The position numbers and the translations under genes were made by a program. This document shows positions 13,826 through 60,649 of a stretch of 64,000 bases of DNA, in pieces; position 1 is the first letter of the stretch, and each line of letters opens with the position of its first letter. The DNA comes from Kineosporia mesophila (lineage in GTDB: Bacteria; Actinomycetota; Actinomycetes; Actinomycetales; Kineosporiaceae). The stretch covers positions 186,001 through 250,000 of the forward strand of contig NZ_JAJOMA010000002.1 in assembly GCF_021129235.1 (NCBI RefSeq), in the 5' to 3' direction. The notes under the pieces are model-generated. The model was given only the letters and a program-made list of their open reading frames with translations. It searched no databases and was not told where the DNA came from.

Positions 13826-15745
13826 GTGGTGAAGCGGGTCGCACGGGCCGATCGGGAGCCGAGCACGCTGTTGCGTGGTCTGCGCGTGATCGGCATCGGT
13901 ATCCGGCAGGAGCCGGCCATCTTCTCGGTGGCGGTGGTGATGTCGGCGCTCTACGGCGCGGGCACGGCCGGTGGCGGCTGGGTGCTGGGCCGCCTCACCG
14001 ACCACGTGCTGACGCCCGCCTTCGAGGCGGGCAGCATCAGCGGGCACGACCTGCTCACCACCGGCCTGGTGCTGGCCGGGGTGGCGGCGCTGACGGCCGT
14101 CGGGGTGGTCGGGCGCCGGGTCGCGGCCGGGCTCACCTCGTTCCGCCTGCAGGCGCGGTACCGGCGCCTGCTCACCCGGCAGTACCTGCGCCTGCCGCTG
14201 GAGTGGCACCACCGCCACCCGGCCGGGGTGCTGCTGTCCAACGCGAACGCCGACGTCGAGGCCACCTGGCAGGTGTTCGCCCCGCTGCCGATGGCCATCG
14301 GTGTCATCGTCATGCTGATCGTCGCGGCCGCCGCCATGCTCGTGGCCGACCCGGTGCTGGGCGCGGTCGGCCTGCTGGTGCTGCCCTGGGTGGTGCTGCT
14401 CAACACCGTCTACCAGCGCTACATGTCGCCGGCGGTGACGCGGGCCCAGGCCGAGCGCGGCGAGGTCTCCTCGGTCGCGCACGAGAGCCTCGAGGCCGCG
14501 GCCGTGGTGAAGAGCCTGGGCCGGGAGGCCTCCGAGACCGAGCGGTTCGCCGTCTACGCCGACCGGCTGCGGGTGGCGAACGTGCGGGCCGGGCGGCTGC
14601 GTGCGGCCTTCGACCCGCTGATGGAGGCCATTCCCACCCTCGGCACCCTGACCGTGCTCGCGGTCGGGGCCTGGCGGGTGCGCTCGGGGGCCATCGCGAC
14701 CGGTGACGTGGTCCAGGTCGCGTACCTGCTCAGCCTGGTCGCGTTCCCGCTGCGCTCGATGGGCTGGGTGCTGGGCGAGATCCCGCGCACCGTGGTCGGC
14801 TGGGAGCGCACCAGCGCCGTGCTGGCCGAGACCGACACGATGCCCTACGGCGACGTCACCCCGGCCCCGGGCGGTGCGGTCGGCGTGGAGCTGTCCGAGG
14901 TCGCCTACGCCTACCTGGACAACGACGGCGAGCGCTACGAGGTGCTGCACGACGTCGACCTGAGCGTGCGCCCGGGCAGCACGCTGGCCCTGGTCGGGCC
15001 GACCGGCTCGGGCAAGTCCACGCTGGCCACCCTGCTGGTGCGGCTGGTCGACCCGGCCAAGGGCGAGATCCGCCTGGACGGCACCGACGTGCGTGAGCTG
15101 CGGGCCGGTGGGGTCGCCGAGCTGGCCGCGCTGGTGCCGCAGGGCACGTTCGTCTTCAACGACACCGTGCGCGACAACGTCACGCTGGGCGATACCCGCT
15201 TCGGCGACGACGACGTGTGGCGGGCGCTCGGGGTGGCCCGGGCCGAGGCCTTCGTGCGGCACCTGCCGCACGGTCTCGACACGGTCATCGGGGAGCGGGG
15301 CGCCGACCTGTCCGGAGGGCAGCGGCAGCGGCTCGCGCTCGCCCGGGCCCTGGTGCGCCGGCCCCGCCTGCTCGTGCTCGACGACGCCACCTCGGCCATC
15401 GACCCGCGGATCGAGGCGGAGATCCTGAGCGGTCTCGACAGCCTGTCCGACGCTCCGTCCTCGCCGGCCGGGCCCTCGGTCACGGTCGTGGTGATCGCCT
15501 ACCGCCGCGCCACGATCGCCCTGGCCGACGAGGTGGCCTACCTGGAGAACGGCCGCATCGCCGACCGCGGCACGCATGCCGAGCTCCTGGTCCGCAGCGA
15601 GGGCTACCGGCGGCTCGTCACGGCCTACGACCACCAGGACGACGAGGAACCGGAACCCGGCCCGGCGACGGGTGACCGGCCGGACGACCCGGCTGAACGC
15701 CTCGACGAAGACCTGGACGACCTCACGGGGATGACACGGCGATGA
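13826..15745 (+). CDS. ABC exporter half-transporter, degenerate ATP-site subunit
   Basis: 639 residues: a six-helix exporter domain (about 25-330) and a C-terminal nucleotide-binding domain with Walker A GPTGSGKST (about 390), Q-loop VPQGTFVF, signature LSGGQRQRL (about 495) and Walker B LLVLDDATSAID. The catalytic Glu after Walker B is Asp and the H-loop His is Tyr (VIAYRRAT), so its own site should be weak. The start is GTG 13826, 7 nt after AGGAGG. The next gene overlaps by ATGA and supplies the partner half. The cargo is unknown. Confidence 0.95.
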   Translation: MVKRVARADREPSTLLRGLRVIGIGIRQEPAIFSVAVVMSALYGAGTAGGGWVLGRLTDHVLTPAFEAGSISGHDLLTTGLVLAGVAALTAVGVVGRRVAAGLTSFRLQARYRRLLTRQYLRLPLEWHHRHPAGVLLSNANADVEATWQVFAPLPMAIGVIVMLIVAAAAMLVADPVLGAVGLLVLPWVVLLNTVYQRYMSPAVTRAQAERGEVSSVAHESLEAAAVVKSLGREASETERFAVYADRLRVANVRAGRLRAAFDPLMEAIPTLGTLTVLAVGAWRVRSGAIATGDVVQVAYLLSLVAFPLRSMGWVLGEIPRTVVGWERTSAVLAETDTMPYGDVTPAPGGAVGVELSEVAYAYLDNDGERYEVLHDVDLSVRPGSTLALVGPTGSGKSTLATLLVRLVDPAKGEIRLDGTDVRELRAGGVAELAALVPQGTFVFNDTVRDNVTLGDTRFGDDDVWRALGVARAEAFVRHLPHGLDTVIGERGADLSGGQRQRLALARALVRRPRLLVLDDATSAIDPRIEAEILSGLDSLSDAPSSPAGPSVTVVVIAYRRATIALADEVAYLENGRIADRGTHAELLVRSEGYRRLVTAYDHQDDEEPEPGPATGDRPDDPAERLDEDLDDLTGMTRR

Positions 15746-17595
15746 GCGCGATGACAGACACGGACACCGGCACCACCGACGCTGCCACCGACGCGGCCCC
15801 GGCCCGCCGGCCCGGCCTGACCGGTAACCGCCTGGGCGCCTGGCAGGTGCTGCGGCGTGGTGCGGAGATCTCCCCGGAACTGGTGCGGGGTGTCTGGCTG
15901 ACGCTGCTGCTGGCACTGGTTGCGACCTGCGGCCGGATCCTCGTGCCGATCGCCGTGCAGCAGACCATCGACTCCGGCATCTCGGGTGACGACGGCGTGC
16001 GGCTGGGCCTGGTGCTGCGGCTGGTGGGGGTGGTCGCCGGGGCCGTCCTGCTGACCGCGGTGGCCTCGTACGTGAGCAACGTGCGGCTCTTCCAGGCCAC
16101 CGAGGCCGGGCTGGCGACGCTACGGGTGAAGGCGTTCCGGCACATCCACGACCTGTCGGTGCTGACCCAGAACACCGAGCGCCGAGGCGCCCTGGTCGCC
16201 CGCGTCACCAGTGACGTCGACACCATCTCGACGTTCGTGCAGTGGGGCGGCCTGCTGCTGGTGCTGTCGGCCGGTCAGCTGCTCATCGCCACGATCGTGA
16301 TGGCCGTCTACTCCTGGCAGCTCACCCTGCTGGTCTGGGCCTGCTTCCTGCCGCTGTTCATCATCGTCCGGCCGATCCAGCGCCGGGTGTCCGTGGCCTA
16401 CGGCACCGTGCGCGAGCGGGTCGGCGAGATGCTGGGCTCGATCTCGGAGGCCGTGGTCGGTGCCGACACGATCCGCGCCTACGCGGTGCAGACCCGCACG
16501 CAGCGGCGTATCGACACGGCGATCGAGGCCCACCGGCACTCGGCCGTGCGGGCGCAGATGCTGGTGGCGGTCTCGTTCACCGGTGGCGTACTGATGTCCG
16601 GCCTGGTGGTCGCGGCGGTCGTGGTGGCCGGTACGGCCCTCGGCGTGGACGGCGGCCTCACCCTGGGCGAGCTGCTGGCCGTGCTGTTCCTGGTGCAGCT
16701 GTTCACCACGCCGGTGCAGATGGGTACCGAGGTGCTGAACGAGCTGCAGAACGCCGCGGCCGGCTGGCGCCGCGTGATCGGCGTGCTCGACACCCCGGCC
16801 GACATCGTCGACCCGGGCGAGGAGGGCGTGAGCCTGCCGCGCGGCCCGATCGGCGTGGAGTTCGAGCACGTCACCTTCGCCTACCCGGACGGCGATCCGG
16901 TGCTGCGCGACGTCAGCCTGAGCATCCCGCCCCGGGCCCGCGTCGCGGTGGTCGGCGAGACCGGCTCGGGCAAGACCACCCTGGCGAAACTGCTCACCCG
17001 CCTGATGGACCCGGCCGGCGGGCGCGTGCTCCTGGACGGGGAGGACCTGCGCCGCATCGCCTTCGCCAACCTGCGCTCGCGGGTGGTGATGGTGCCGCAG
17101 GAGGGGTTCCTCTTCGACCTGAGCCTGGCCGACAACATCGCCTGGGGCAGCGAGGGTGCCACCCGGGAGCAGGTGGAGGGCGCGCTGCGGGAGCTCGGTC
17201 TGCTGGACTGGGCGCAGGGTCTGCCGCGGGGCCTGGACACCCCGGTCGGGCAGCGCGGCGAGTCGCTGTCGGCGGGGGAGCGGCAGCTGCTGGCCCTGGC
17301 CCGTGCCTACCTGGCCGATCCCGACCTGCTGGTGCTCGACGAGGCCACGTCCGCCGTCGACCCGGCCACCGAGGTGAAGCTGCAGGCCGCCCTCGACGGC
17401 GTCACCCGCGGCCGCACCTCCGTCACCATCGCCCACCGCCTCAGCACGGCCGAGGCCGCCGACCTGGTCGTGGTGGTCGACAAGGGTGAGGTCGCCGACG
17501 CCGGTCCCCACGCCGACCTGCTGAAACGCTGCGAGCCCTACCAGCGCATGTACGCGTCCTGGCGCAGCCAGACCTCTCGGCCGGCGAAGGGATGA
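15742..17595 (+). CDS. ABC exporter half-transporter, catalytic subunit
   Basis: 617 residues with six membrane helices (about 45-340) and a nucleotide-binding domain: Walker A GETGSGKTT (about 407), VPQEGFLFD, Walker B LLVLDEATSAVD with normal Glu, and H-loop IAHRLST. Its signature is LSAGERQLL instead of LSGGQ. This is complementary to the partner: degenerate Walker B/H-loop in one and altered signature in the other come together in the same ATP site, as in heterodimeric exporters such as TM287/288. Substrate unknown. Confidence 0.95.
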   Translation: MSAMTDTDTGTTDAATDAAPARRPGLTGNRLGAWQVLRRGAEISPELVRGVWLTLLLALVATCGRILVPIAVQQTIDSGISGDDGVRLGLVLRLVGVVAGAVLLTAVASYVSNVRLFQATEAGLATLRVKAFRHIHDLSVLTQNTERRGALVARVTSDVDTISTFVQWGGLLLVLSAGQLLIATIVMAVYSWQLTLLVWACFLPLFIIVRPIQRRVSVAYGTVRERVGEMLGSISEAVVGADTIRAYAVQTRTQRRIDTAIEAHRHSAVRAQMLVAVSFTGGVLMSGLVVAAVVVAGTALGVDGGLTLGELLAVLFLVQLFTTPVQMGTEVLNELQNAAAGWRRVIGVLDTPADIVDPGEEGVSLPRGPIGVEFEHVTFAYPDGDPVLRDVSLSIPPRARVAVVGETGSGKTTLAKLLTRLMDPAGGRVLLDGEDLRRIAFANLRSRVVMVPQEGFLFDLSLADNIAWGSEGATREQVEGALRELGLLDWAQGLPRGLDTPVGQRGESLSAGERQLLALARAYLADPDLLVLDEATSAVDPATEVKLQAALDGVTRGRTSVTIAHRLSTAEAADLVVVVDKGEVADAGPHADLLKRCEPYQRMYASWRSQTSRPAKG

Positions 17596-56635: not shown

Positions 56636-58498
56636 GTGGGGCGGCGAGTGAGTGAAGAGCGTCAGGGCCGCAGGCTGCCTGTCGGCAGACTGGGTCGTTT
56701 CGGCCGGTTCGGCAGACCAGGGGTCGTCGTGGCGGTCCTCGCCGTGCTCTCCTTCGGGGCCGCCGGAGCCTGGCTGGCCGTGCGCGCTCAGCAGGCCCGG
56801 GTCGCCGTCGAGGCACTGAAGACCGACGGCAAGGTGCTCCAGAGCCAGCTCGAGGCCTACGACCTCGTCGCCGCGGGGCAGACGCTCGCCCAGGTGCGCG
56901 AGGACGCGCAGCGCGCCCGCGGCCTGACGTCCGACCCGGTCTGGGGTGCCGCTTCCTACGTTCCCGTGCTCGGCCGTGACCTGTACGCCGCGCGTCAGGT
57001 CAGCGCGGTCATGAACGACATCACCCAGTCCGCCCGCCCGCTGGAGACCGCCCTGCCGAAGCTGCGGCCCACCGGCACGGCCGGCAACCAGGGGCAGCTC
57101 GACACCGCCGCGATCCAGGACGTCGCCGAGGCCATGCCCGCTCTCTCCGCCGCGGTCTCCTCCGGGGCCGTGAAGGTGGGGGAGATCGATCCCGGCCCGC
57201 TGCGTCCCGAGGTGGCCGACGGCGTCTCCACTCTCAGCTCCGCCCTGGAGTCCGCCCGCGGCCCGTTCGCCGACGCTGTGCCCCTGCTCCAGCAATTGCC
57301 CGGCATGCTCGGGTCCGACGGTCAGAAGACCTGGATCGTGCTGCTCCAGCAAGACGCGGAGGCCCGCGGCACCGGCGGTCTGGTCGGTGCGTTCGCCGAG
57401 CTGAAGACCGACCAGGGCCGGATGGTGCTGTCCGACGCCGAGTCCCGCTCCGCACTCGACCGGGGTCCGGCCATCCGGTCGAGCGTGGTGCCGCAGAATC
57501 TGCGGGAGCACTACGGCAAGGACCTCACCGAGTGGGCCGGTTTCAACGCCAGCCCGCACTTTCCGCACACCGGCGAGCTCGCGGCCAAGGGCTGGAACGA
57601 GCGCACGCAGCAGCGGGCCGACTTCGTCGCGGGGGTTGACCAGAATGTGGTCGCCTCGATGCTCGCAGCCACGGGTCCGGTGAAAGTCCGTGGTGTGACC
57701 ATCGATTCGTCGAACGCCGCGAACTTCCTGAGCAAGGGCGTATACGCCCGCTGGAACAATCCACAGGTCGTGGACGCCGTGACCACCGAGCTCGTCCAGG
57801 CGGTCTTCGGTAAGTTCTCCAGTGGAGAGTTCAGCATGCCGACGCTGATCAAATCGCTGCGCGAGCCGATCCGCGAGCGGCGTCTCCTGCTCTGGGCCAA
57901 CGACGACGAGGTCCAGGCCCGGCTGGAGCAGCTCAGCATCTCCGGCACCATTCCGGGTGATCCCGGACCGTTTGCCATGACCGTCATCAACAACGGCGGC
58001 GGCAACAAGATGGACGCCTATCTGCAGGTGGACACCAAGTACGACCCGGGCACCTGCACGAACAGCGCCAGGGTGGGCCAGATCGCGGTCACCCTGGACA
58101 ACACGGCTCCCAAGGACGGGGAAGGGCTGCCGTCCTATGTCAACGTCCGGACAGACCTCATACAGCGGGGTTTCACCGGTCGGGCGACGCGTGACGGCAG
58201 CAACCGGATCGTTCTGGACATTTATGGCCCGGTGGGGAGCAGTGCCGTGCTCACCCAGCTCGACGGGTCGACGGTCATTCCGGTGACCGGTCTCGACAAC
58301 AACCACCCGGTGTGGCGCCTCAGCGTGCCCATCGCAGCGGGGCAGACCCGCACGGTGAACGTCGTGATGTCCACCCCGGTCGTCGAGGACGACGCCGGGC
58401 AGATCCCGGTCGTGCTGAACCAGCCCATGGTGAAGCCGGCCACCAGCAGCACCGAGCCGCTGAGTGCTTGCAAGACCTCATCCGTCGTCGGGGGATGA
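56636..58498 (+). CDS. DUF4012 membrane-anchored protein
   Basis: 620 residues with a basic head, one membrane helix (about 30-50), and a large extracytoplasmic part. GLTSDPVWGAASYVPVLG and LLQQDAEARGTGGLVGAFAEL are landmarks of DUF4012 proteins; these are found near polysaccharide and cell-envelope genes in actinobacteria, without a known activity. The family ASPHFPHTGELAAKGW region is also present. Start GTG 56636 has no ribosome binding site. Confidence 0.88.
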   Translation: MGRRVSEERQGRRLPVGRLGRFGRFGRPGVVVAVLAVLSFGAAGAWLAVRAQQARVAVEALKTDGKVLQSQLEAYDLVAAGQTLAQVREDAQRARGLTSDPVWGAASYVPVLGRDLYAARQVSAVMNDITQSARPLETALPKLRPTGTAGNQGQLDTAAIQDVAEAMPALSAAVSSGAVKVGEIDPGPLRPEVADGVSTLSSALESARGPFADAVPLLQQLPGMLGSDGQKTWIVLLQQDAEARGTGGLVGAFAELKTDQGRMVLSDAESRSALDRGPAIRSSVVPQNLREHYGKDLTEWAGFNASPHFPHTGELAAKGWNERTQQRADFVAGVDQNVVASMLAATGPVKVRGVTIDSSNAANFLSKGVYARWNNPQVVDAVTTELVQAVFGKFSSGEFSMPTLIKSLREPIRERRLLLWANDDEVQARLEQLSISGTIPGDPGPFAMTVINNGGGNKMDAYLQVDTKYDPGTCTNSARVGQIAVTLDNTAPKDGEGLPSYVNVRTDLIQRGFTGRATRDGSNRIVLDIYGPVGSSAVLTQLDGSTVIPVTGLDNNHPVWRLSVPIAAGQTRTVNVVMSTPVVEDDAGQIPVVLNQPMVKPATSSTEPLSACKTSSVVGG

Positions 58499-58544
58499 CC
58501 ATCGCCCCCGATCTGCCTCCCGTACCAGAGGGGACCAGCGAGTC

Positions 58545-59153
58545 ATGAACTTCAGCAAGATCAACCGAAAAGCCGCCGTGGTGGGGATTCTCGCCATTGC
58601 CGGCATCGGCGGAGGGGCGGCCTACGCCTATCCGTCGGGTGTGCCACTGACCATCTCCGCCTCGGCCGTGCGCGTGGACGACAGCAATTCCACGCTCACC
58701 GTCACCTTGGGCAACGCCGATCCCCGGTGCTCGACGGCCGTCACCGTCAACGGTGCGCCCTTCGTCACGCTGGGCCCCGGCCAGACCACGGCATCCGGCC
58801 CGGCCACCACCGGTTCCGGCCGGAACCGGGTACGGGCCCGCACGATCGACTGCGCGCTGAAGGAGAGCGCCCGCAGCGATTTCGTGGTGCCGAACGCGGT
58901 TCTTACGGGCCCCACCTCGGCCGTGGTCAAGGAGCAGGTCCGGTTCAGTCTCACCGGTCTGGAGCCGGGTCTGGACGTCACCGTGCAGGCCGTCAAGGTC
59001 GGCGGTGGGGCCACCTACTCCGACACCGACATCTCGAACCGGCGTGGTGAGGCCAAGGTGCGCCTGAAGTTCAAGGTGAAGGGCACCTACGTGGTGACGG
59101 CCAGCATCAACGGCAGCGCGGTGGGCAACAGCATCACCATCACCGTCAACTGA
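58545..59153 (+). CDS. Secreted protein of unknown function
   Basis: 202 residues. A signal peptide (about 1-28: basic NRKAA, hydrophobic core, AYA end) is followed by two beta-rich modules, the second resembling an Ig-like repeat (VTVQAVKVGGGATYSDTD, GTYVVTASINGS). Two Cys (in DPRCST and TIDCALK) could form a disulfide. It starts 46 nt after the DUF4012 stop, so the pair is probably one operon. I do not recognise the family. Confidence 0.75.
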   Translation: MNFSKINRKAAVVGILAIAGIGGGAAYAYPSGVPLTISASAVRVDDSNSTLTVTLGNADPRCSTAVTVNGAPFVTLGPGQTTASGPATTGSGRNRVRARTIDCALKESARSDFVVPNAVLTGPTSAVVKEQVRFSLTGLEPGLDVTVQAVKVGGGATYSDTDISNRRGEAKVRLKFKVKGTYVVTASINGSAVGNSITITVN

Positions 59154-59233
59154 ACCGGCCCGGCGTAGCCGGTTCCGGCGGCATCTGATCCGTTCCCCTT
59201 CCGGGATCGGCGCCGCCTTTCGACGACCGGGCC

Positions 59234-59251
59234 CGGACCATCCGTGGTCCG
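59234..59251. promoter_or_regulatory. Small hairpin in the 59154-59372 gap
   Basis: CGGACCA-TCCG-TGGTCCG is a perfect 7-bp stem with 4-nt loop, and GAACCGG/CCGGTTC (59152-59158, 59169-59175) flank the preceding stop codon. Either may be a terminator; neither has a U-tract. Confidence 0.4.
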
Positions 59252-59372
59252 AACCGGTCAGCAGCCCGGCCGGCCGTCCCGATCTCACCCCCGGGGCGGC
59301 CGACCGGGCCGATCTGTGTGTGCCCCCACGACCGTGTTCGACGAAGTTCCAGACCATCGGGGGAATTGACGC

Positions 59373-60008
59373 GTGACGTCCTCAGCACCTTCAGGGCCAG
59401 ACAACTACGCACCCGACGAACCGACCCACGTGAGCAAGATTTTCGTGATCATCGGAACGGTCGGGGTGCTCGGCGCGATCGCCTGGGGATCGCTGGCCCT
59501 GGTGAACAACGAGAGTCCGGCCGACGACCGGACCCTGCCCGCGGCCACGGGCCGTCCGCTCTGGCGGCCGACCCCGTCCGGTTCCCCGGACGCGACGACC
59601 CCCGCCGCCACCACCCGCCCGGTGGTGCTGTTCGACGGCCCGCTGACCATTGCCGGAGGCCTGGGCATCGACGTCGATCAGGCTGACGAAAGAGCGGCCA
59701 AGGCAAAACCAGGCACCAGCCGCAGGTCGAGCGCGCTCGACGTCTACTGGGACCAGAAGACCGGCTTGTCACCCGTCGACGGCAAGCTGTTCATGGACCA
59801 GGGTCTGCCCCAGGGCGCGGCCGCCCGCTGCGCCTCACGGGTTGCCTCGGGTAAGCAGGGTTTCCCGTCGCTCGACGTGTTCCCGGGCGACCAGTTCTGC
59901 TTGAGGACGTCCGACGGGCGGGTCGCCTGGCTCCGGGTCGGCGAGGGATCGGACCGGCCCGACGAGCTGTCCGTCCAGGTGACCGTGTGGGACGGCGTGC
60001 CGGGTTGA
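59373..60008 (+). CDS. Membrane-anchored protein of unknown function
   Basis: 211 residues: a polar head, one membrane helix (about 22-44), a Pro/Thr/Ser-rich spacer and a C-terminal exported domain with two Cys (ARCASRV, FCLRTSD) that could pair. GGGGGAATTG lies before the GTG start. It looks like the topology of an actinobacterial envelope or kinase sensor domain but I recognise no family. It follows the DUF4012 and secreted-protein genes. Confidence 0.72.
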   Translation: MTSSAPSGPDNYAPDEPTHVSKIFVIIGTVGVLGAIAWGSLALVNNESPADDRTLPAATGRPLWRPTPSGSPDATTPAATTRPVVLFDGPLTIAGGLGIDVDQADERAAKAKPGTSRRSSALDVYWDQKTGLSPVDGKLFMDQGLPQGAAARCASRVASGKQGFPSLDVFPGDQFCLRTSDGRVAWLRVGEGSDRPDELSVQVTVWDGVPG

Positions 60009-60042
60009 AGACAGCACCGATGAAGCTGCCGAAGGAGTCGAC

Positions 60043-60649
60043 ATGCCCACCGATCCGTCCAGCACCGCCCTCGTCCTCATCGAGTACCAGAACGATTTGA
60101 CCAGCGAGGGTGGTGTGCTGCACGGGGCGGACGCGCCGGTGATGGCCGGCACCGGGATAGCTGGCTAAGACACAGGCCGTGGCGAAGGCCGCACGGGCCG
60201 CCGGGATCACGGTGATGCACGCGCCCATCAGTTTTGCCGAGGGCTACAACGAGATCGGCTCGCATCCCTACGGGATCCTGAAGGGCGTCGTCGACGGCAA
60301 GGCCTTCGTCAAGGGATCGTGGGGCGCCGGGATCGTCGACGACCTCGCTCCGCAAGCCGGTGACATCGTGGTCGAGGGCCAATGGGGCCTGGACACCTTC
60401 GCCAGCACCAACCTGAATTTCATGCTGCGCAGCAAAGGAATCCGCACCATCGTCCTGGGCGATTTCCTCACCAACTGCTGCGTCGAGTTGACGATGCGCA
60501 GCGGCTACGAGAACGGGTACCGGGTGGTCACGCTGTCCGACTGCATGGCAGCCACATCGGCGCAGGAGCACGAGAACGCTCTGCGTCTCGACTTCCCGAT
60601 GTTCTCGGTGCCGACAACGGCGGAGGAGTTCCTCGCCGGGCTCCCGTGA
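60043..60649 (+). pseudogene. Cysteine hydrolase (isochorismatase family), frameshifted
   Basis: Two frames make one isochorismatase-like protein. Frame 1 runs from ATG 60043 (catalytic Asp in LIEYQNDLTSEGG) to a TAA at 60166. Frame 2 goes from within 60161-60168 to 60649 and holds the catalytic Lys region KAFVKGSWGAGI and Cys in GDFLTNCCVELTM. A single extra base near 60159 (GGGATAGCTG where GGGATGCTG would keep the frame) explains the break. Either a recent pseudogene or a sequencing error. Such enzymes hydrolyse isochorismate, nicotinamide or ureides; target unknown. Confidence 0.85.

Follow-up and report, generated by a model that had tools for sequence, protein, structure and literature searches.

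The DUF4012 protein encoded at one locus of Kineosporia mesophila may be a remodelled transferase of the LytR-CpsA-Psr (LCP) type, which would attach lipid-linked polysaccharide to an exported protein dedicated to that role and, in this case, would act away from the polysaccharide loci. We regard this reading as plausible, if somewhat short of probable. The gene for the protein (gene 1, 56636..58498) lies in a 64,000-nucleotide stretch of contig NZ_JAJOMA010000002.1 (positions 186,001 to 250,000; this whole stretch is referred to as the window), within a genome of 7.78 Mb. It is followed on the same forward strand by gene 2 (58545..59153), for an exported protein with two immunoglobulin (Ig)-like beta domains, and gene 3 (59373..60008), for a protein with a hydrophobic segment, a linker and a C-terminal domain with two cysteines. 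Membership of the DUF4012 family is in itself ordinary; the interest is that the family is now tied to a fold, a candidate active site and a partner. Our computations support the predicted fold, a set of invariant residues, and an association with both polysaccharide-type genes and an exported neighbour. Together, the LCP-like fold and the two gene associations suggest that the protein transfers a lipid-linked glycan to its exported neighbour, in the manner proposed for LcpA acting on GspA in Actinomyces oris.

Predicted fold and candidate active site of the DUF4012 protein

Gene 1 encodes 620 aa from a GTG start and matches PF13196 (DUF4012) at 101.7 bits against a cut-off of 28, over 144/144 positions. 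PF13196 is the only family that hmmscan lists for the protein, and PF03816 (LCP) is not matched. The structural model and the column counts below use 59 sequences, comprising the window's protein and those from fetched loci. The AlphaFold2 model (predicted local distance difference test, pLDDT, 90.1; predicted template modelling score, pTM, 0.87) runs from a hydrophobic N-terminal helix into a helical domain (residues 28-224, 56717..57307), then an alpha/beta core (about 222-433, 57299..57934) and a beta-sandwich (about 440-613, 57953..58474). Block means of pLDDT in the predicted core range from 89 to 97. The protein is presumably inserted in the membrane, with its helical part outside.

Structural comparison of the model with VIA-align pointed to the core. 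The first 18 rows all align within residues 220-435, at Z 10.8-8.0 and a root-mean-square deviation of 3.9-5.3 over 149-181 residues. By title, ten of them are LCP/Tag enzymes (LytR, TagT, TagU, TagV, LytR-Cps2A-Psr family, A. oris LCP), two carry titles that speak of a "widespread family of cell wall assembly proteins", and the remaining six come from structural genomics; one of the six, YvhJ, we take to be TagV. A Z near 8 can reflect a common arrangement, but a chance likeness to LCP is disfavoured because of the top Z, the unanimity of the rows and the coverage of the whole core. We therefore consider it very likely that DUF4012 is related to LCP by fold. Foldseek lists LCP entries weakly (best 3tep, E 0.012); M1 aminopeptidases, which make up most of its first rows (E ~2e-3 to 5e-3), were rejected, since they align over ~130 columns at a template modelling score (TM) of 0.11 and none falls below 0.001. 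C-terminal VIA-align matches to integrins, glycosylphosphatidylinositol (GPI) transamidase and ribophorin-type proteins, mostly at 439-620, were also set aside, as their Z of 6.6-8.0 is at a level that the tool calls common. The resemblance of the beta-sandwich (57953-58474) to oligosaccharyltransferase, GPI-transamidase and integrin domains, in the same Z range, may be chance.

Profile comparison is in modest agreement with an LCP fold at the level of sequence. Aligned by hhalign with 20 LCP proteins from relatives, the DUF4012 alignment gave a probability of 54.5, E 1.2e-4 and a score of 45.2 over 40 columns, in which DUF4012 reads approximately DGVxxVDPxxLxxLLxATGPV and LCP approximately IDxYVExxxxGFxxxVDAxGGV. 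The best control scores were 18.6 for 20 column shuffles, 23.0 for the reversed alignment and 29.7 for 19 decoy families. The LCP set was drawn from 30 loci, 22 of which passed a motif pattern requiring one LCP arginine; 20 were aligned and two over-long frames were left out. Searched against the sequences of solved structures, the DUF4012 profile returned 16 entries up to E 1. Most of these were coiled-coil or designed proteins that aligned to the helical domain (best E 4.8e-5), and none was an LCP entry.

Among the 59 DUF4012 proteins, whose identity to the window's protein goes down to 19%, E242, Y370 and K458 are invariant (59/59) and R244 is kept in 58/59, the sole arginine present at >=90%. 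E242 and R244 lie in the core with Y370, while K458 lies in the beta-sandwich. By the order of elements, as opposed to atom-level alignment, E242 is placed close to where the first core strand ends, a position that in LCP is taken by the first Asp. The 20 LCP proteins instead share five invariant arginines, one of which (R224) was forced by the selection pattern. A. oris LcpA requires R149 and R266 (PMC6381275), and in Cps2A several arginines are used along with two Asp, the magnesium ligands D234 and D246 (PMC7831098). No conserved counterpart of R149 or R266 was found in the 59 DUF4012 proteins, and at position 271, which we guess to correspond to the PRD arginine, 8/59 have R. Because the core-only hhalign and forced alignments are too weak to map catalytic residues singly, our argument rests on the counts of invariant residues. 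An LCP-like fold that is without the LCP arginines, a feature by which the LCP family is defined, implies either a remodelled site or lost catalysis, and the invariance of charged residues favours the former. The E-x-R motif, the Tyr and the Lys may thus form a putative active site of DUF4012's own, at which catalysis would take place. In the beta-sandwich, C474 and C612 are cysteine in 53 and 54 of 59 proteins, respectively, and could possibly form a disulfide.

Genes that accompany DUF4012

DUF4012 was present in 102/197 sampled class genomes and 48/149 phylum genomes, the window's own counted, and in 0/14 named control genomes. To describe its surroundings outside the genus we used 66 regions, taken from all matching genomes in one search and the upper part of the class list, with some short contigs skipped. 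Genes were called with a simple GC-frame script, which gives rough starts, and a DUF4012 gene was called in 65/66 regions, the exception being L114, whose region nevertheless figures among the 20 pairs compared below. At least one of seven glycan-gene types occurred in 54/65 regions and at least two types in 41/65; some genomes contributed more than one region, and those that are related do not count as independent. In the paired comparison, glycan types were found in 19/20 DUF4012 regions, compared to 2/20 control regions ~200-400 kb away on the same contigs. The glycan-type seeds were checked against Pfam, except for the phosphatase seed, which was taken from the cluster of a checked gene. 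The genes around DUF4012 include priming sugar transferases, Wzz and glycosyltransferases. In two of nine records examined, the plasmids of Streptomyces sp. NBC_00467 and Rhodococcus qingshengii, a sugar transferase directly precedes DUF4012 and glycosyltransferases lie around it. Three further observations were made: a stop codon splits the DUF4012 gene of L144 (G211) into two open reading frames (ORFs); three DUF4012 genes lie within ~22 kb of one contig (G039 contig 16, L048 and L061), with glycan-type genes near; and a Streptomyces linear plasmid (L205) carries a chaplin-family gene at 15624-16349, ~5 kb from DUF4012.

A report on the exopolysaccharide (EPS) locus of Bifidobacterium longum 105-A likewise lists a DUF4012 gene between a priming transferase and wzz and calls its product an auxiliary protein (PMC5412050). 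This label is repeated in a survey of the candidate phyla radiation (CPR), and a biofilm transcriptome study names a DUF4012 gene as a hub gene.

The situation in Kineosporia is different, as none of the seven glycan-gene types was found in the DUF4012 regions of this genus. The first-pass annotation had pointed to the lack of adjacent glycosyltransferases, and this holds for the genus but is peculiar to it. Elsewhere in the genome, each of the genus genomes has 4 matches to the PF02397 priming transferase and 3 or 4 to Wzz (one Wzz of G004 below the cut-off). With no glycan genes nearby but priming transferases and Wzz elsewhere, the window copy is a detached DUF4012.

The second association is with exported proteins. 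Among the 63 non-genus DUF4012 genes longer than 400 aa, 27 had a small exported neighbour on the same strand, compared to 19/285 control genes and 33/538 genes that lie in the same loci but are separated from DUF4012 by a distance of more than two genes. A neighbour with an L(P/A/S)xTG-type sorting signal accompanied 23/63 (6/285 controls, 9/538 same-locus genes), and a neighbour of either kind 37/63 (25/285 and 40/538). The rules for export and sorting signals are our own and include false cases (L129 and L132 look like enzymes) as well as misses (e.g. L045, L110). Of the 23 sorting-signal cases, 22 contain L(P/A/S)xTG and one was admitted under a less strict criterion; by kinship labels, the 23 represent 10 family-level groups. 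LAxTG signals are those of class E sortases. The abstract of PMC5148588 uses both terms. In L126, L128, L140 and L143, the gene directly after DUF4012 encodes a protein with an LPFTG signal and a length of 436-646 aa, counted from rough starts; the one scanned had no Pfam match.

In the window, the exported neighbour is the product of gene 2. Its ORF has a mechanical start at 58464; the likely start is the ATG at 58545, 46 bp after the stop of gene 1, which gives a protein of 202 aa with a signal-peptide-like start as read from the sequence. The model (pLDDT 80.9, pTM 0.59) is all-beta with two domains, and Foldseek found 187 matches with E no higher than 0.001, the top 50 of which include transglutaminase, intimin, immunoglobulin and complement chains. 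As these matches span both domains simultaneously, TM relative to the query was only 0.26-0.40. The predicted model and the Foldseek matches support an Ig-like fold. Gene 2 scored 23.1 bits with Big_1 (PF02369), under the cut-off of 34.9, and a search of solved structures gave nothing convincing (best E 0.0039).

The trio in Kineosporia and its surroundings

As first described, three consecutive same-strand genes are present, with a DUF4012 match in gene 1, an all-beta product of gene 2 and two cysteines in gene 3. All three occur together and in the same order in 6/6 genus genomes searched, including the window's own. Within the genus, the lowest identity to the window is 74% (DUF4012), 54% (gene 3) and 42% (gene 2); of the three, the exported partner changes fastest. 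By direct search, genes 2 and 3 were found in 0/22 non-genus genomes. A gene-2 profile, however, finds a 219-aa exported protein after DUF4012 in two genomes of the sister genus (L037, L038). The hmmsearch E values were 6.4e-10 and 2.7e-8 with a profile made of six rows of an alignment originally built with L037 included; hhalign gave a probability of 96.1 and E 2.9e-9. The surrounding genes in these two loci differ from those in Kineosporia, and in L038 a Wzz/kinase gene lies two genes ahead of DUF4012. The pair of DUF4012 and gene 2 therefore appears older than the genus. The expectation of a conserved trio was thus borne out within the genus, while outside it the unit is DUF4012 plus one exported neighbour.

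Gene 3 starts 219 bp after gene 2 with a GTG and encodes 211 aa. C153 and C176, which follow its hydrophobic segment, are invariant in 9 aligned sequences, the window's included. A gene-3 profile has matches in 6/147 other class genomes at E<=0.01; the three we looked at have the C-terminal two-Cys region in common, and Pfam places no family above cut-off for the profile matches. A second match in G001 was weak and was dropped as unconvincing after the DNA was viewed. Solved structures gave nothing convincing (best E 0.95). We regard gene 3 as a genus-level accessory without an assigned role.

A scan of the trio found no sigma-70-like promoter and no terminator. Upstream lie genes that we take to be rpsA-, coaE- and uvrB-like, as well as barstar, homocysteine S-methyltransferase and FAD oxidoreductase genes. 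Downstream come an isochorismatase-type gene that is broken, a gene for an aldo/keto reductase and one for a DUF222 protein. In the isochorismatase-type gene (60043-60649) the frame from the ATG at 60043 stops after 41 codons and the remainder is open from 60179 in another frame; five genus relatives have longer ORFs. In these relatives (L032-L036), a membrane-type protein (5/5) and a protein of the extracytoplasmic function (ECF) sigma type (4/5) are encoded downstream of gene 3 and convergent to the trio (Pfam was run on two of the loci), and this pair is missing from the window (60008-60043). We considered the pair as a regulator of the trio and rejected it, as it is convergent and absent from the window.

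Competing explanations and known systems

In the proposed mechanism, DUF4012 would be a membrane-anchored, extracytoplasmic protein of LCP fold with a remodelled active site, which, on the external side of the membrane, would bind a glycan linked to undecaprenyl-(pyro)phosphate and transfer it to the exported acceptor encoded next door. The acceptor would be the Ig-like product of gene 2 here, and in other actinobacteria often an LPxTG/LAxTG-type surface protein. The glycan would be supplied in trans from polysaccharide loci elsewhere in the genome, with gene 3 as a genus-level membrane accessory. Taken by parts, DUF4012 is probably a polymer transferase in some form, whereas that the acceptor is a protein is conceivable but falls below an even chance.

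Several observations weigh against this proposal. Besides the missing LCP arginines and the lack of glycan genes around the Kineosporia copies, the genome has seven other genes that match PF03816, and these ordinary LCP proteins could ligate polymer without DUF4012. The fold assignment itself meets with an integrin, aligned on the C-terminal part, that ties row 18 of VIA-align at Z 8.0 in row 19, with the lack of any Foldseek match to the model at E<=0.001, and with an hhalign probability of 1.8 (E 0.027) for the core alone. With respect to the partner, 26/63 DUF4012 genes have no exported neighbour by our rules, gene 2 has no sorting signal by the same rules, and in a third sister-genus genome (L044) DUF4012 is 28% identical and its exported neighbours differ: two other small exported proteins precede it, of which one matches Big_1 weakly (E 0.019).

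One alternative is an LCP-like ligase that attaches exopolysaccharide to peptidoglycan, as ordinary LCP enzymes do, the exported neighbour being a matrix cofactor, adhesin or coat protein in place of an acceptor. The fold, the location of DUF4012 among priming sugar transferase, Wzz and glycosyltransferase genes, and the 26 DUF4012 genes without an exported neighbour are all in line with such a ligase, but the strong association with sortase-signal or small exported proteins does not follow from it and the LCP arginines are missing here too, so that we judge it unlikely, albeit a serious competitor. The loss of those arginines would be accounted for by a non-catalytic scaffold of LCP fold that holds a lipid-linked chain, or aids export or chain-length control, and forms no bond, and the additional helical and beta-sandwich domains would also suit this role. 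We find it rather more doubtful, as the retention of E242, R244, Y370 and K458 down to 19% identity points to an active site.

The first-pass annotation had put forward a candidate undescribed envelope system, with the three proteins as the minimal core of a separate structure. A role in the envelope is supported. The unchanged order in the genus and the absence of adjoining glycan-type genes speak for such a core, but outside the genus DUF4012 accompanies glycan-type genes, gene 3 was not found by direct search in the 22 other genomes, and the predicted fold of the central protein is enzyme-like and groups it with LCP glycopolymer transferases; the idea of a minimal core is thus improbable and the description as undescribed does not stand. 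Least probable of all, and hardly credible, is that genes 2 and 3 are mere neighbours unrelated to DUF4012. The 219-bp gap that separates gene 2 from gene 3, the lack of evidence for a shared promoter and the restriction of gene 3 orthologs to the genus in the direct search would allow it, but the order is constant across the genus and a gene-2 homolog follows DUF4012 in the two sister-genus genomes amid other surrounding genes.

Its LCP-like fold, its own conserved set of putative active-site residues and its ties to both polysaccharide-type genes and exported proteins make the unknown domain DUF4012 a testable candidate for a step that may keep exopolysaccharide on the actinobacterial cell. 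The passages we found that name the domain give no mechanism for it. The literature searched contained no statement that DUF4012 is LCP-like, which Pfam/InterPro notes or other papers could hold, and PF13196 was not found there. A close known system is LcpA of A. oris, which is genetically linked to the sortase-anchored GspA and needed for its glycosylation (PMC6381275). This linkage of an LCP-fold protein to a sortase-anchored protein recurs in the 23 sorting-signal cases above, and row 18 of the VIA-align comparison (Z 8.0) holds an LCP structure from A. oris, 5v8c. The two differ in that LcpA has the standard LCP arginines, while the DUF4012 partner in the window, whose glycosylation is putative, is without a sorting signal. 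The DUF4012 protein of the B. longum 105-A EPS locus shares the family name (PMC5412050), whereas the window copy has no polysaccharide genes close by. With the LCP transferases (TagT/TagU/TagV, Cps2A; PF03816) DUF4012 shares the predicted core fold, an N-terminal membrane anchor with an outside part, and the genomic link to polysaccharides. In contrast to them, it is not recognised by PF03816, has other invariant residues in place of the LCP arginine set, and adds a helical domain and a C-terminal beta-sandwich. It is possible, although on balance we lean away from it, that DUF4012 represents a second class of LCP-fold transferase, widespread in actinobacteria, with an active site of its own and with an exported Ig-like or sortase-anchored protein, not peptidoglycan, as acceptor.

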